Source: a virus. Taken from it: a stretch of 21,906 nucleotides of DNA. The stretch spans positions 1 through 21,906 of the IMG/VR virus record IMGVR_UViG_3300028025_002833; one strand, given 5' to 3'. The notes below the pieces were generated by a model, which was not told the origin of the DNA, made no database searches, and saw only the letters and a program-made list of their open reading frames with translations. How positions within the stretch are numbered: the stretch's first letter is position 1; every line of letters begins with the position of its first letter. A program made the translations under genes and the position numbers. Positions 1,805 through 21,531 of this stretch are shown in pieces.

Positions 1805-1843
1805 CTATTTTATGAAATATTTTTTAATTTTTTTTTAGGCAAT

Positions 1844-12888: not shown

Positions 12889-14874
12889 TTATAAAGTTGC
12901 ATTTTGTAACCTATTCCTTTCAAGGCTTAAACCATTTGCTACGTCACCACTTACTACATAAGCCCTCGTTGGTTTTTGTTGTATTTGTGCTAATTGATTA
13001 ACCCCAGAACTTCCGATTACACTAAAATTAGGTGTAGTCATTTGACCACCACCACCACCGCCACTTGGTGCGCTACCACCACCTGTTGCACCGCCACCTT
13101 CAAATTTTTGAGTAGCAATCTTTGCAACGTTTGTTAAACCTGCTGCAACTGCCAAACCTGCTGCGATACCACCTCGAACTGGTGAACTTGGGTCAGGAAT
13201 AGGTAAGAACTGCGAAGCGTAAGCAGCTGTTGCATTTTGATAAGTTGTAATTAATGCAGAAGCAATTTGTGCTGCCTTTTGAACTTGAAACGCTTTACGC
13301 GCTGCCTTTTCTGATTTCTTGCCAAATAGTTCTGTAATACTTGCAATCGTTTCTAATCCTTGTTTAACTGCATTTACTTTAAATGACTGCGCCTTTTCTT
13401 CAGCTTGTCTTGCTCTAATTGCTTGAACGTCTAAGATTAATTGCCTTTTTTCTGCAGCTGCTTTTTCGGCTTCATATTCCGCATCTAATCCACCTTGTAA
13501 AGTTTCTAAACGTGAATTACTTAATACTTTTAAATCAGTTATTTTCTTAGTTTCTAATTTTATTATTTCGCTGTTGTCCTCTTCAATAGCTTTACGTATT
13601 TTTTCAGCGTTATCTTGTTGGGCAACTTCTAATTGTGCGCCTTTTAATTTTTCTAATTCTAGTCTTTTGTTAAGTAAATCGGTTAATATTTTTTCATCCG
13701 TGTTTGCCTTTCTTATTTCAAGTTCAATTAAAGCATCTAATTCCGATTTTCTATTTTCTATTGCATCAGATGAACCTTGCTTATTCATTTCTTTAACAGA
13801 TAATTGAAATCCTGCTTTTTGATTTTCTAAGTCGCGTAATTGTTTACGTATTTCTTCCTCTTCTTTTTTACCTTCCGCTTTTACCTCTTCAACATTAAAT
13901 AACGAACCTGCAATAAACCCTGAAAATTTATCTTGCATATCATCAATAGTTTTACCCATATCAAATGCAACTAATTTTCCCATCCCTAATGCCTCAGATA
14001 TTTTATTAGCACCTTTAATAGCTAAGTCAATAGGCATTAACATTAACTTAGGTAAGAATAAAGCAGAATTTACTATTAAGTCAACTACTTTCTTTGTTAG
14101 ATTATAGTTTTGTATCGCTGCCTTTTCTTCGGCTTTATTTGTACGTATAACATTTTCAAGTTCGATTTTACCTAATTCAATAGCTGTATTTACCTTTGCT
14201 ATTTTTAAGTTTAAAATTTCACGCTCACTTTTACCTTGAAGTTTTAATACATTATCTTGTGCATCTAAATTTTCTAATTCAGCTTTTGAAGTTTCAAAAT
14301 TAGCGTGTGAAAGTTGATTTAACTTTTCTTGCTCTTTAGAAACACCACTTACTGCAGCTTTTATATCATCCCAATAGGCAACAACGGCCCCTAAAGCAAC
14401 TATAAATAGCCCAATACCTGTTGCTAATAATGCACCTTTAATGCCTTTTAAAGATTCAACAGCAACTGCTCCTAATTGTTTAAAAGCACGTCCAGCATCT
14501 TCTAAGCCTTCAAGACCTTGCGCTAAAGCCATAGCACTCTGTACTTTAAGCATTGTTTCTTGTAGCTTTTCGCTTTCAACACCTATTAAACCCATAGCAC
14601 CCTCAACAGCACTAAAACCATTTGCAACAGAACTTAACGCTTTTGCTGTAGCTACAAATTTACCCTCTCCTTTAAATGCAGCAATAGCATCGTTTGTATC
14701 TTCTATTTTATCTTTTAACTCCGCAGCTCTTTTAGCAGCTTGTGAAACTTCTTTAGACGTTTCTCCATAGGCATCAGCCAATCTTTGAACTTCTAAAACT
14801 GCTTCTTTATATTGCTGTTTAAGGGTTTTAGTGTTATCTTGAATTTCTAACTCAATTACTCTTTTTTCTGCCAT
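12889..14874 (-). CDS. Tail tape measure protein
   Basis: A 661-residue helical protein starting MAEKRVIELEIQDNTKTLKQ. Long coiled-coil segments at the start and from about residue 330 to 490 (EEIRKQLRDLENQK, KRLELEKLKGAQLEVAQQD), an Ala-rich helical region (LSSVANGFSAVEGAMGLIG), hydrophobic segments (LLATGIGLFIVALGAVVAYW and VVDLIVNSALFLPKLMLMPI) and a Gly-rich stretch (GGGATGGGSAPSGGGGGG) near the end are typical of tape measures. These fix tail length and help DNA entry at the membrane. At about 0.15 nm per residue the tail would be near 100 nm. The start overlaps the 56-aa gene upstream by 23 nt. The frameshifting chaperone, normally adjacent, lies about 4.5 kb upstream. Confidence 0.8.
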   Translation of the reverse strand: MAEKRVIELEIQDNTKTLKQQYKEAVLEVQRLADAYGETSKEVSQAAKRAAELKDKIEDTNDAIAAFKGEGKFVATAKALSSVANGFSAVEGAMGLIGVESEKLQETMLKVQSAMALAQGLEGLEDAGRAFKQLGAVAVESLKGIKGALLATGIGLFIVALGAVVAYWDDIKAAVSGVSKEQEKLNQLSHANFETSKAELENLDAQDNVLKLQGKSEREILNLKIAKVNTAIELGKIELENVIRTNKAEEKAAIQNYNLTKKVVDLIVNSALFLPKLMLMPIDLAIKGANKISEALGMGKLVAFDMGKTIDDMQDKFSGFIAGSLFNVEEVKAEGKKEEEEIRKQLRDLENQKAGFQLSVKEMNKQGSSDAIENRKSELDALIELEIRKANTDEKILTDLLNKRLELEKLKGAQLEVAQQDNAEKIRKAIEEDNSEIIKLETKKITDLKVLSNSRLETLQGGLDAEYEAEKAAAEKRQLILDVQAIRARQAEEKAQSFKVNAVKQGLETIASITELFGKKSEKAARKAFQVQKAAQIASALITTYQNATAAYASQFLPIPDPSSPVRGGIAAGLAVAAGLTNVAKIATQKFEGGGATGGGSAPSGGGGGGQMTTPNFSVIGSSGVNQLAQIQQKPTRAYVVSGDVANGLSLERNRLQNATL

Positions 14875-18443: not shown

Positions 18444-18973
18444 TTTTTAAAATTTGGTTTCATAATACTGTCAAATAATTCTATTACGTCTAATCCGTAT
18501 TTATCTATTAATTCATCAGGTAAATTCTTATAAGCTGCTTCAAATGGCTTTGTAAAAAATAAACTTGGTTTTATACCTTTTTCAAATATACTTCGCGCTA
18601 TTGCAAAGTTTAAACCTTTACGTGTTTGAAATTGTCCTTTAGTGTTTCTCGGTGCTATCCCTCTTCGAATCGTCCATTTGTCAAATGCACTTGGTGGTGG
18701 CATTCCTTTTAAACCGTTTTTTCCACCTTTTGATTTATAACTAAATGGCGTATCGTATTTCTTTTTAATACCGCTAACACCTTTGTCTTGAAAGAATCCG
18801 TAATCTTCCATGTCAAAGTAAATCCCTATTGAATTAGGAAATGCTTTTGCTTCACCTTGAATTGAATTATAGAGTTTTTTAGATGCGTTTTTACCTGTCG
18901 TAGTTAAATTACGTTTAGCTTGACTTACAACGTGCTTAATAAATCTATCTAAAAGTTCCTGTCTATTATTCAT
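18440..18973 (-). CDS. HK97-gp10-like head-tail joining protein candidate
   Basis: A 177-residue basic protein starting MNNRQELLDRFIKHVVSQAK. It has helices in the first 45 residues, then strands (SIGIYFDMEDYGFFQDKGVS), a KYDTPFSYKSKGG loop, MPPPSAFDKWTIRRGIAPRN and a conserved-looking GLNFAIARSIFEKGIKPSLF, FTKPFEAAY end. The MEDYG.F.DKG.SG and FDKW..RRG pattern recalls the HK97 gp10/minor tail protein superfamily and its many Bacteroidota phage relatives. It would act in the neck, joining tail to head, next to the tail terminator. It overlaps both neighbours by short junctions (18973-18966, 18443-18440). Confidence 0.6.
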   Translation of the reverse strand: MNNRQELLDRFIKHVVSQAKRNLTTTGKNASKKLYNSIQGEAKAFPNSIGIYFDMEDYGFFQDKGVSGIKKKYDTPFSYKSKGGKNGLKGMPPPSAFDKWTIRRGIAPRNTKGQFQTRKGLNFAIARSIFEKGIKPSLFFTKPFEAAYKNLPDELIDKYGLDVIELFDSIMKPNFKK

Positions 18974-19424
18974 CGCAAATAGTCATTTGGTTACTTATCA
19001 AATAGTCAAAGGTCATAGTCCAACCTGCTAAGTTGTTTTCAAAGCGTTCTATAAATGGTTCTAAACTTGGGTTACCATCTATAATTCCTAAGTTCAAAAA
19101 GTAATCACCGCGAGTTAGTTTATCATAAACACGGTTTAACATTGTTATTTGAGTATTTAATACGTCCTGTTCGTTATCGTTGCCTATAAAAATATCTGTT
19201 GTTTCGTCTTTTGCTATATCAACTACGTCCATCGCAATTACAGAAATATTATATCTTATAACGTTACTTTCAAACGTAGCATTATTTACCATAATATGAG
19301 CTAAAGGAAATATCGTTTGTTTAGATAAGTCAACTCTATAAATATCGCCTTGGGTAACCGTGTTTACTAATTCCGTAGATTCTAACTCTGACTTGATTAT
19401 ATTTAATATTCCGTAATAACTCAT
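18966..19424 (-). CDS. Tail terminator / neck protein candidate
   Basis: A 152-residue protein starting MSYYGILNIIKSELESTELV. It has an N-terminal helix, then strands (TQGDIYRVDLSKQTIFPLAH, RYNISVIAMDVVDIAKD), a helix with TQITMLNRVYDKLTRGDYF, and a final strand with FENNLAGWTMTFDYLI. The order helix-strand-"MD.VD"-long helix-"L.GW...F" is that of tail terminator-like proteins (gpU/gp10 fold), which cap the tail and contact the neck. ATGA overlap with the frame -1 extension of the chaperone gene (19424-19421) and an 8-nt overlap with the gp10-like gene suggest an intact tail-assembly block. The assignment is by pattern and context only. Confidence 0.55.
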   Translation of the reverse strand: MSYYGILNIIKSELESTELVNTVTQGDIYRVDLSKQTIFPLAHIMVNNATFESNVIRYNISVIAMDVVDIAKDETTDIFIGNDNEQDVLNTQITMLNRVYDKLTRGDYFLNLGIIDGNPSLEPFIERFENNLAGWTMTFDYLISNQMTICDE

Positions 19425-19702
19425 ATTCCTTTATTTAATTGTCGCTTTAATTCTCTTTGTTCAATTTCGTTTTTTTGCTTTTCGAAAGTAAGGTAGGTAA
19501 GTGCTTTTGTAAGTCGAAGTCTGGTAACATCGTCAAACTTTGTGACGTCTCCTTTAGCTGCTGCATATATGCTCTGATACCATCCCCACTGTTTGTTAAA
19601 TTGAGTTCTTTCGCTAAAATCGTTTTCATCTCCTCGCTCTTCATCAGTTGTTTCTCCAAATAAGACAGGGTAGCCCCTAATAATTCGCTCTCTAAATTCC
19701 AA
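19421..19702 (-). CDS. Frame -1 C-terminal extension of tail chaperone (gpGT-like)
   Basis: This frame runs 93 codons from TTG 19702-19700 to TGA 19423-19421, and lies entirely one base back relative to the chaperone gene. It has no ATG and is closed by TAA at 19714-19712, just upstream of the T run, so it can be read only after the shift or from a rare TTG. The protein segment QFNKQWGWYQSIYAAAKGDV, TKFDDVTRLRLTKALTYLTF, ending EKQKNEIEQRELKRQLNKGI matches the T-domain style (WGWY..IY.LA.GD..K.D.V) of gpG-T chaperone fusions. A slip at 19702 gives a fusion of 163 + 93 = 256 residues. Its stop overlaps the next gene's ATG as ATGA. Confidence 0.8.
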   Translation of the reverse strand: MEFRERIIRGYPVLFGETTDEERGDENDFSERTQFNKQWGWYQSIYAAAKGDVTKFDDVTRLRLTKALTYLTFEKQKNEIEQRELKRQLNKGI

Positions 19703-20190
19703 AAAAAAACCTTAGCAGCAAGTGCAATATCCAAAGGCACAAATTCCATAACCTCAGAATAAGTGACAGAACTAACATACGGCTCAATTGTATACTTGTC
19801 TTTTTGTGTTTTTACTATTGGGCGATACATTACCGCCATCGCTTTATGAAAGTTGCTTATATCGGCTATATTTGCTTCAAGGTCTATATATTCACCCCAG
19901 CTTATCTCTTCTAAATTCGGTATAAATCCAAACTCAACGCCTGAAAGCGTAAATCTGTTTTTAAATTCCGTCTTTTGCTCAAATAACTTTGCAAAATGTA
20001 GGCTTAAAGATTCAATTTCTTTGTAAGGTAATTTAACGACATCCTTTAATTCGATACCGCAAAATATTTGAATCATTTTTTCAGCTAGAAATAACTCGTC
20101 TTTTGTCTTTGAAACTACTTCCAAAAACTTTTGATATTTCTTTAAGCTAATTTCACTTAGGCTTGTTGGAATGACTAATTCTAACTTCAT
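19447..20190 (-). CDS. Tail assembly chaperone, zero-frame product (gpG-like)
   Basis: A 247-residue mostly helical protein starting MKLELVIPTSLSEISLKKYQ. It carries LFEQKTEFKNRFTLSGVEFG, FIPNLEEISWGEYIDLEANI and VMYRPIVKTQKDKYTIEPYV, and continues past the T run (LAAKVFFWNLESELLGATLS) to a Lys-rich end (KSKKTKLNKEN). The segment FIPNLEEISWGEYIDLE...MAVMYRPI is what I recall of phage proteins that precede T-domain frames. It would keep the tape measure in order and help tail tube assembly. Codons 161-163 (GTT TTT TTT) fall in the slippery run at 19701-19709; slipping yields the 256-residue alternative product. The gene lies 13 nt after the 55-aa gene, far from the tape measure gene itself. 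Confidence 0.7.
   Translation of the reverse strand: MKLELVIPTSLSEISLKKYQKFLEVVSKTKDELFLAEKMIQIFCGIELKDVVKLPYKEIESLSLHFAKLFEQKTEFKNRFTLSGVEFGFIPNLEEISWGEYIDLEANIADISNFHKAMAVMYRPIVKTQKDKYTIEPYVSSVTYSEVMEFVPLDIALAAKVFFWNLESELLGATLSYLEKQLMKSEEMKTILAKELNLTNSGDGIRAYMQQLKETSQSLTMLPDFDLQKHLPTLLSKSKKTKLNKEN
19701..19709 (-). promoter_or_regulatory. Slippery T9 run for programmed -1 frameshift
   Basis: On the coding strand the bases read AAG GTT TTT TTT TGG in the chaperone frame, so a T TTT TTT heptamer ends at 19702. Shifting by -1 reads TTG GAA TTT, the first codons of the T-domain frame. A short hairpin (AGGG, GCTA, CCCT) lies about 23 nt downstream, too weak and distant to be called a classic stimulator. 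A run of nine T could equally cause RNA polymerase slippage. Confidence 0.78.
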
Positions 20191-20203: not shown

Positions 20204-20371
20204 TTATTTTGATTTATTGTAGTTCACGGCTATGGCGTATGCTTCACCGAGTAAAATTAAATGCTTTCTTAAGTTTTGAGGGTCATCGAATACTATTTTA
20301 ATCCGTTTTCCTGTACGAATATACACATAGTTCTCAACTACAGCCTTTAACTTCGGTGTGTCATCTGTCAT
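20204..20371 (-). CDS. 55-aa mini-protein between terminase and chaperone
   Basis: ATG 20371-20369 shares a base with the terminase TAA (TAATG), and the frame ends with TAA at 20206-20204. The 55-residue product (MTDDTPKLKAVVENYVYIRT ... LLGEAYAIAVNYNKSK) is a small mixed-fold protein with DDPQNLRKHLILLGEA. It fills the 180-nt interval between terminase and chaperone genes and is read in a single clean frame. No family recognised; a small neck or packaging factor is possible from position. Confidence 0.65.
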   Translation of the reverse strand: MTDDTPKLKAVVENYVYIRTGKRIKIVFDDPQNLRKHLILLGEAYAIAVNYNKSK

Positions 20372-21531
20372 TAACGTATATTATATGTTCCATAATTACG
20401 CTTTAATCCTAAGGTTTCCATTTCATGATAACGAAAAGCATCTATAGCATGATTATTATTATCAATAGGCTTATTTAAACGTGTTCCGTGTTTATCTACG
20501 TCCCAACAATACGCCCTTAACTCTTTGATTAAATTAACGCTGTTGGACGTCACTAAATATTCCTGCTGTTGTATTACATCAATTCCGTAATTAATTGAAT
20601 CCTTGCCCTTTGTAACGCCTTTAATCGTTATTCCGTAGCGTTTTATTTCATCTATTGATTTGGGTTCTGAACTATCAGCGTACACAATTACGTTTTTAGG
20701 TAGTGTTTTAGCTATGTCGCTGTTTAACATTCCTGTTTGGTACTTTAATTCGTTGAGGATTCGTGTTCCGTTATAATTGTATACTTCGATTATTGCAGTC
20801 GGGTCATTGGTATATCCAAAGTCTAAACCGATACCGATTAACTTAGCTTCGGTTGGTAGTTTATCAATTTGTTTCCAGTTGCTAAATATAACACCCTCTA
20901 ACATTCCTATTTCTCCCAATCCGTAAACACGCCACCAATTAGCCCAATAGCTGCTTGTTTCTGCTTTTAAACGATTCTTTTCTATTTGTTGAACAATGCT
21001 ATTATCTAAAGCTTCATTGTCTTTGTAAGTTAAGATTATAAAGTCTGCGTCGGGTTCGTCTTTTAGTTCGGTATGCACCCAAAATTCATTTGCAGGATTA
21101 AAGTCTAAATAAACTTCTTTCTTAGTACGTATTGCTAACTCATTATAAGATTCAAAGGTCACATTATTACACTCATTAATATATAAAATATCACGCCTGG
21201 CTCCTCTTAATTTACTTGAATCATCTGCACTAAAAAATTCAAAGTTGCTTCCGTTTTTAAACTGATAATTTAAAAGTGATTTATTGAATTGCTCATCGTT
21301 ATAACGATTAGTCCATTTAAGTATTTTAAGAAAATCTTTTAATGCACCCCGTCTTAAATGTGGTATTGATTCAGCAACTACGCTTATTTCTAAGTTAGGT
21401 TGTTGTATTGCTTTATTTATTAAGACCGCTAAAATAGAATACGTTTTCGAAGCACTTGTACCACCTTGTATTATTTTAATTCGTCTTTTTAAAGCCAGTA
21501 CTTTATTCGTTGCTGTCGTCCTCTTGAACAT
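20371..21531 (-). CDS. terL: Terminase large subunit (PBSX/Terminase_3-like)
   Basis: A 386-residue packaging ATPase-nuclease. The ATPase half shows a Walker A-like motif at 23-30 (GGTSASKT), a Walker B with catalytic Glu at 115-120 (ILYINE), and LDFNPANEF at 142-150, the coupling-motif region. The nuclease half shows acidic residues of the RNase H-like site: Asp237 in GIGLDFGYTNDP, Asp286 in VIVYADSSEP and Asp364 in NNHAIDAFRY. It would cut concatemeric DNA and pump it through the portal. The length and motif order fit PBSX-type terminases common in Bacteroidota phages. The start overlaps the small subunit candidate by 29 nt, and the 55-aa gene begins on its last base. Confidence 0.95.
   Translation of the reverse strand: MFKRTTATNKVLALKRRIKIIQGGTSASKTYSILAVLINKAIQQPNLEISVVAESIPHLRRGALKDFLKILKWTNRYNDEQFNKSLLNYQFKNGSNFEFFSADDSSKLRGARRDILYINECNNVTFESYNELAIRTKKEVYLDFNPANEFWVHTELKDEPDADFIILTYKDNEALDNSIVQQIEKNRLKAETSSYWANWWRVYGLGEIGMLEGVIFSNWKQIDKLPTEAKLIGIGLDFGYTNDPTAIIEVYNYNGTRILNELKYQTGMLNSDIAKTLPKNVIVYADSSEPKSIDEIKRYGITIKGVTKGKDSINYGIDVIQQQEYLVTSNSVNLIKELRAYCWDVDKHGTRLNKPIDNNNHAIDAFRYHEMETLGLKRNYGTYNIR

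Follow-up and report, generated by a model that had tools for sequence, protein, structure and literature searches.

The locus described here raises the question of whether one phage gene yields two proteins with different C-terminal ends by slippage on a run of nine T's and, if so, whether it is the RNA polymerase or the ribosome that slips. The stretch analysed (the window) comprises 21,906 nucleotides of the IMG/VR virus record IMGVR_UViG_3300028025_002833, and the gene in question, hereafter the slippage gene, lies on its minus strand at 20190-19447 and gives a zero-frame product of 247 aa. The common N-terminal domain (19702..20190, minus strand) takes up zero-frame codons 1-163, the last of which is the second TTT of the run, and the zero-frame tail (19447..19701, minus strand) follows with 84 codons and a stop. 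The T9 run itself (19701..19709, minus strand), flanked as G-T9-GG, is read in the zero frame as ...GCT AAG GTT TTT TTT TGG... and includes the in-frame heptamer T TTT TTT (19702-19708, minus strand). The -1 frame, which is shut upstream of the T run by a TAA (19712..19714, minus strand), holds a T domain of 93 codons plus stop (19421..19702, minus strand) that would be reached via slippage, and its TGA overlaps the ATG of the next gene (18966..19424, minus strand; 152 aa, phrog_30964) as ATGA at 19421-19424. The zero-frame tail overlaps almost the whole T region, and some 250 bases are read in two frames. Together, the N and T domains make up a fusion of 163 + 93 = 256 residues, and the motif WGWY...GD..KFD.V is found in the T domain of the window. 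An initial annotation of this DNA had already described the AAG GTT TTT TTT TGG context, the -1 frame shut by TAA and open for 93 codons to the ATGA, and the 256-residue fusion with its WGWY motif, all of which we recovered, with the T9 at 19709-19701 and the TAA at 19714-19712; the 84 zero-frame codons past the slip, the most unusual part of the locus, were absent from it.

A T9 alone is unremarkable in the window, which is AT-rich and contains two such runs versus 7.7 expected, and its significance lies in its conservation. The only other T9 (1828-1836, plus strand) falls in a gap between two minus-strand ORFs. A search of Rfam gave no match. Relatives were collected from IMG/VR, the queries being the products of the zero and -1 frames, the Nonlabens protein, a profile built on the T domain and several distant N domains, which yielded more than 300 loci, some of them overlapping copies of one contig. 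The set of 327 loci used below was defined by an N-domain profile placeable to its end, and a T run was not required. As a result, the longest T run at the site measured 9 in 313 loci, 10 in 11 and 8 in 3, and no relative without the run was encountered; a chance T run was rejected, since 8-10 T's occur in 327/327 loci. Furthermore, T TTT TTT stood in frame, as an X_XXY_YYZ heptamer of the zero frame, in 224/224 distinct contexts. TTC never occurred as the second Phe codon among these 224 contexts, and as background, TTC makes up 32% of Phe codons in the same N domains, and T is the last base in only 40% of their V/L/I/F codons. A swap to TTC at the second Phe would be silent in the zero frame and, provided that TTA or TTG is the next -1 codon, in the -1 frame as well. 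Because the T run and the in-frame heptamer are conserved, the slippage reading is strongly supported, and with it the claim of the initial annotation that a slip at the T run fuses the N and T domains.

The stops around the run were less constant. A -1-frame stop precedes the T run by 2-48 codons in all relatives but one, at a position that is not conserved, and a locus near-identical to the window (L001) is without the TAA just before the run. In the +1 frame, a stop follows two codons past the T run in 203/223; we considered this stop as a clue to products of a one-base deletion and rejected it, since it follows from the two coding frames. One locus (L092, 478-1242) carries a T10, and with its one extra base the N domain reads straight on into the T domain; a sequencing error may lie behind this, or the gene may be fused in nature.

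We then investigated whether the T domain could have a start of its own. The -1 ORF spans 80-93 codons in complete relatives, and the conserved residues of the T domain include FR.R, WGWY and others. The -1-frame stop shares bases with the following ATG, as ATGA in 122/223 and as TAATG or TGATG in 23/223, and the same start-overlap patterns at the zero-frame stop numbered 17 for ATGA and 29 for TAATG or TGATG (n = 223). If there were no slippage, the T domain would be a separate protein made from an internal start, be it the TTG at 19702 or a different codon, and the T run would be incidental. In the window a TTG does stand right at 19702, and the Nonlabens record has a separate gene from a downstream ATG. 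However, the first -1 codon varies among relatives (TTA in 139 and TTG in 72 of 224 contexts), an ATG near the slip point occurs in 6/228, the annotated Nonlabens ATG would remove the conserved first part of the T domain, and the invariant T run would be left unexplained. An ATG-started second gene, the kind of homologue that the initial annotation had set against a slip, is thus almost absent, and we rejected an internal start, which is very improbable, on the ground that start codons are not conserved. The Nonlabens P12024S/L site reads CT9ATCATTTAGG, with the T domain in the -1 frame and a zero-frame tail of 25 codons. In these phages gp41 and gp39 are annotated from the downstream ATG (L154, 6528-6695; L155, 3528-3695), so that the conserved T domain loses its first third. 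A further locus (L072, around 1883-2629) has its -1 frame shut after 41 codons, just before WGWY, and its zero frame open for 90; this early stop is either an error or a loss of the T domain.

The overlap of the two frames next called for an account of the zero-frame tail. In 141 real sequences the zero frame stays open for 77 codons on average, versus 24 after the synonymous codons of the T domain were reshuffled. Variation at fourfold sites, scored only where a change cannot create a zero-frame stop and compared pairwise with relatedness ignored, was 0.17 in the overlap versus 0.53 in the N domain for tails of at least 70 codons, and 0.39 versus 0.61 for tails of 45-69 codons. As a control, short zero-frame tails were used, and the T domain beyond the tail gave 0.48 versus 0.55 in the N domain, a comparison of six sequences only. 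The view that the zero-frame tail is a mere shadow of the T domain was rejected by the stop and synonymous-site tests. Judged from these substitution patterns, purifying selection at the protein level is acting on both frames of the overlap. Where the tail stops is specific to each clade, between 16 and 90 codons beyond the slip, and these end points could trace the growth or shrinkage of a dual-coded tail. In the N-domain tree, which is unrooted, the Nonlabens phages and their kin, whose zero-frame tails are short, fall into a single clade, and long tails were either gained by overprinting or lost in the Nonlabens clade, depending on where the root is placed.

In the scheme that we propose, standard reading would give the 247-residue protein, made up of the 163-residue N domain and the 84-residue zero-frame tail, and -1 slippage on the T9 would give the 256-residue fusion of the same N domain with the 93-residue T domain; the same roughly 250 bases would encode two different C-terminal ends. 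From sequence conservation, both proteins are presumably made. By analogy with lambda gpG/gpGT, one form would bind the tape measure protein and the rarer fusion would recruit tail-tube subunits. We put the probability that this is one gene with two products through slippage and a dual-coded end at roughly 0.85, a figure that excludes the level of slippage and the chaperone role.

The level of slippage was therefore considered separately. The RNA polymerase would add a U on the nine T's and bring the T domain in frame in a fraction of transcripts; alternatively, the ribosome would slip by -1 on U_UUU_UUU, with two tRNA-Phe in tandem. Both levels yield an identical fusion, and mass spectrometry alone cannot tell them apart. 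We compared T and A runs in 505 other ORFs of the same loci, each of at least 200 aa, with the expectation from synonymous reshuffling. As a result, T runs of at least 8 and A runs of at least 9 were depleted in the coding ORFs of these phages: T9 was seen 0 times elsewhere versus about 15 expected, T8 7 times versus 23, and A9 9 times versus 27. An exact T7 in the heptamer phase was tolerated (43 seen versus 57 expected), this being the least avoided phase. Such avoidance favours slippage by the RNA polymerase, by which some transcripts gain one U at the T9 and ordinary translation then gives the fusion, although it could also stem from replication errors, and the tolerance of T7 heptamers in the same phase in other genes speaks against a purely ribosomal shift. 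In many bacterial genomes, A and T runs are avoided from length nine owing to transcriptional slippage, and mxiE uses a U run of this kind (PMC1088944), which again points to the polymerase.

Changes in the flanks of the heptamer bear on the same question. In five lineages the codon ahead of the two Phe codons has lost the T from its second position (GGT twice, AGT, AAT and GAT), and four of the five have gained TT after these codons, which gives T9 or T10, versus 3/54 to 3/88 of the others depending on the clustering. The Fisher p values run from 4e-4 to 6e-5 with the clustering, and are optimistic since the test was devised after the first cases. The heptamer is intact in the lineages that lost the T, even without the extra T's, and the compensation of run length despite an intact heptamer favours the polymerase and argues against the ribosome alone, as does the complete lack of TTC at the second Phe codon in the contexts above, a usable heptamer ending that is synonymous in both frames. 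On the other side, purely ribosomal -1 frameshifting on U_UUU_UUU, as in lambda G-GT and P2 E+E', would take the flanking T's as only mirroring the encoded residues (V/L/I before, W/Y after), and the residues usual at these positions can indeed account for each flanking T. No context lacks the heptamer (224/224), and one lineage has only T8 (L277, L309 and L310), which would be enough for the ribosome and counts against the polymerase. To our knowledge, the experimentally studied tail-chaperone cases are all ribosomal, a further point against slippage in transcription. P2-like phages use T-run heptamers, namely T6G, T7G and T7C (PMC3931495). In E. coli, U_UUU_UUU is reported to be less shift-prone than A_AAA_AAG (PMC5009743), which counts against the proposed scheme. 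Programmed -1 ribosomal sites often, but not always, have a stimulatory RNA structure downstream. No stability beyond that of shuffles was found in the RNA downstream of the site (nine sequences, with pseudoknots outside the model), and a downstream stem as stimulator was rejected for want of a signal.

From these patterns in the sequences, run length seems to be selected besides the heptamer, and for this reason polymerase slippage is at least as likely as ribosomal slippage. We regard RNA polymerase slippage as having an even chance of being right and purely ribosomal frameshifting as falling just short of that, and both may be acting. The -1 shift of the initial annotation thus stands as slippage at the T run; its assignment to the ribosome is no better supported than the polymerase slippage that was offered there as an alternative, as the run length points at least equally to the polymerase.

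We next placed the gene in its genomic neighbourhood. Upstream of it in the window lie the terminase subunits, with the large subunit TerL at 20371..21531 (minus strand; Terminase_3, E 1.5e-16), and downstream follow proteins of 152, 177, 363 and 777 aa and then the tape measure protein (12889..14874, minus strand; phrog_3336, E 6.7e-10), four genes downstream of the slippage gene. The slippage gene is thus located in the tail cluster between TerL and the tape measure gene, not directly before the latter. A first scan of genome contigs with the window protein gave no match. A relative was present on a 3.9-Mb contig, a single-contig Flavobacteriaceae genome chosen from the family to which a Winogradskyella MAG belongs, where the order is TerL, slippage gene, 149 aa, 169 aa, 341 aa, 776 aa and a 646-aa tape-measure-like protein; with the gene order compared by eye, this locus is likely a prophage. 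The cultured Nonlabens phages P12024S and P12024L have a homologue directly after TerL, and two more relatives lie on Bacteroidota MAG contigs. Judged from these relatives, the host of the window's phage would be a member of the Bacteroidota.

Finally, we investigated what the products might do. The N domain matched the profile phrog_32199 (E 7.7e-15), and searches of Pfam, NCBIfam and PHROGs gave no sequence similarity to annotated G/GT families; profile matches to phrog_166, a tail protein, were weak (best E 0.0015). The N domain was folded alone with AlphaFold2, as an alignment including the L092 fusion had put T rows on the N domain, and the model reached a pLDDT of 93.7; the T-domain model, from 19 rows, is of low confidence (pLDDT 65). 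Foldseek with the N-domain model gave no match against the PDB at E 0.001, and among the BFVD viral models it retrieved the Nonlabens P12024S protein I6R9M9, many uncharacterised phage proteins and, weakly (E 8.3e-3), one annotated tail assembly chaperone. In a second look with VIA-align, the HK97 tail assembly chaperone gp13 (2ob9) came first, but its Z of 3.5, over 68 residues, hardly exceeded that of unrelated chains. It is rather unlikely that the slippage is real and the products nevertheless serve another head or tail assembly step. The weak fold and profile matches to known chaperones would agree with such a role, as would the position of the gene after the terminase and not immediately before the tape measure gene; however, no other two-product candidate was seen between TerL and the tape measure gene in the window and the likely prophage, and the BFVD match and the first rank of HK97 gp13, weak as it is, also speak against it. 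The products are thus probably tail assembly chaperones, on the basis of the tail-cluster position, the two-product layout and the weak fold matches; the chaperone role named in the initial annotation is plausible by position and architecture, with weak support from the fold.

The broadest form of our proposal, which we advance tentatively and think somewhat more apt to fail than to hold in all its parts, is that RNA polymerase slippage on a T9 of conserved length, not ribosomal frameshifting, gives rise to the tail chaperone fusion in a widespread family of Bacteroidota tailed phages, with the whole T domain dual-coded and both forms carrying different, selected ends. The loci provide a large and deeply conserved natural data set on polymerase versus ribosome slippage, a matter usually settled case by case, and the selection on both alternative ends over up to about 90 codons makes a strong case of dual coding in double-stranded DNA phages. 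In the open-access papers searched, we found no report of a frameshift in tail genes of Flavobacterium or Bacteroidota phages. In both sequenced isolates that carry the gene, P12024S/L, annotation overlooked the fusion: the gp38-gp39 and gp40-gp41 pairs of these phages (Inhavirus) are true homologues annotated as two hypothetical proteins, which differ in having a zero-frame tail of only 25 codons. Elsewhere in the collection, a gp26-like gene of Cyanophage P-RSM6 (NC_020855.1; L301, 2468-3366) ends in AGT TTT TTC GGG TAG, with an in-frame T TTT TTC right before the stop, and the -1 frame from there enters a gp51-like gene; judging from the sequence, the two are possibly another slippage pair annotated as two genes.

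Slippage in phage tail chaperones is already known, and what is unusual here is that one stretch is used twice and that the T run keeps so strictly to its length. Lambda gpG/gpGT is alike in having a tail-cluster gene with a slippery site, a -1 shift to a T domain and a common N domain, and its -1 ribosomal shift gives a product ratio of 30:1 (PMC5009743). Unlike in lambda, the slippery site here is a run of 8-10 T's whose length is seemingly selected, and most members have a zero frame that carries on for 55-90 codons across the T domain. P2 E+E' and the P2-like Smp131 likewise shift by -1 on a T run within a tail gene, with T6G in P2, where E' reaches 37 nt back into E, and T7G in Smp131 (PMC3931495); the present run is T9, and the overlap is about 250 nt with both frames selected, versus 37 nt in P2. 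In Shigella mxiE, an extra U in a U run connects two frames that overlap, from which the longer product results (PMC1088944), and insertion of a U at the run would join the overlapping frames here in the same way, in a gene of different identity and function.
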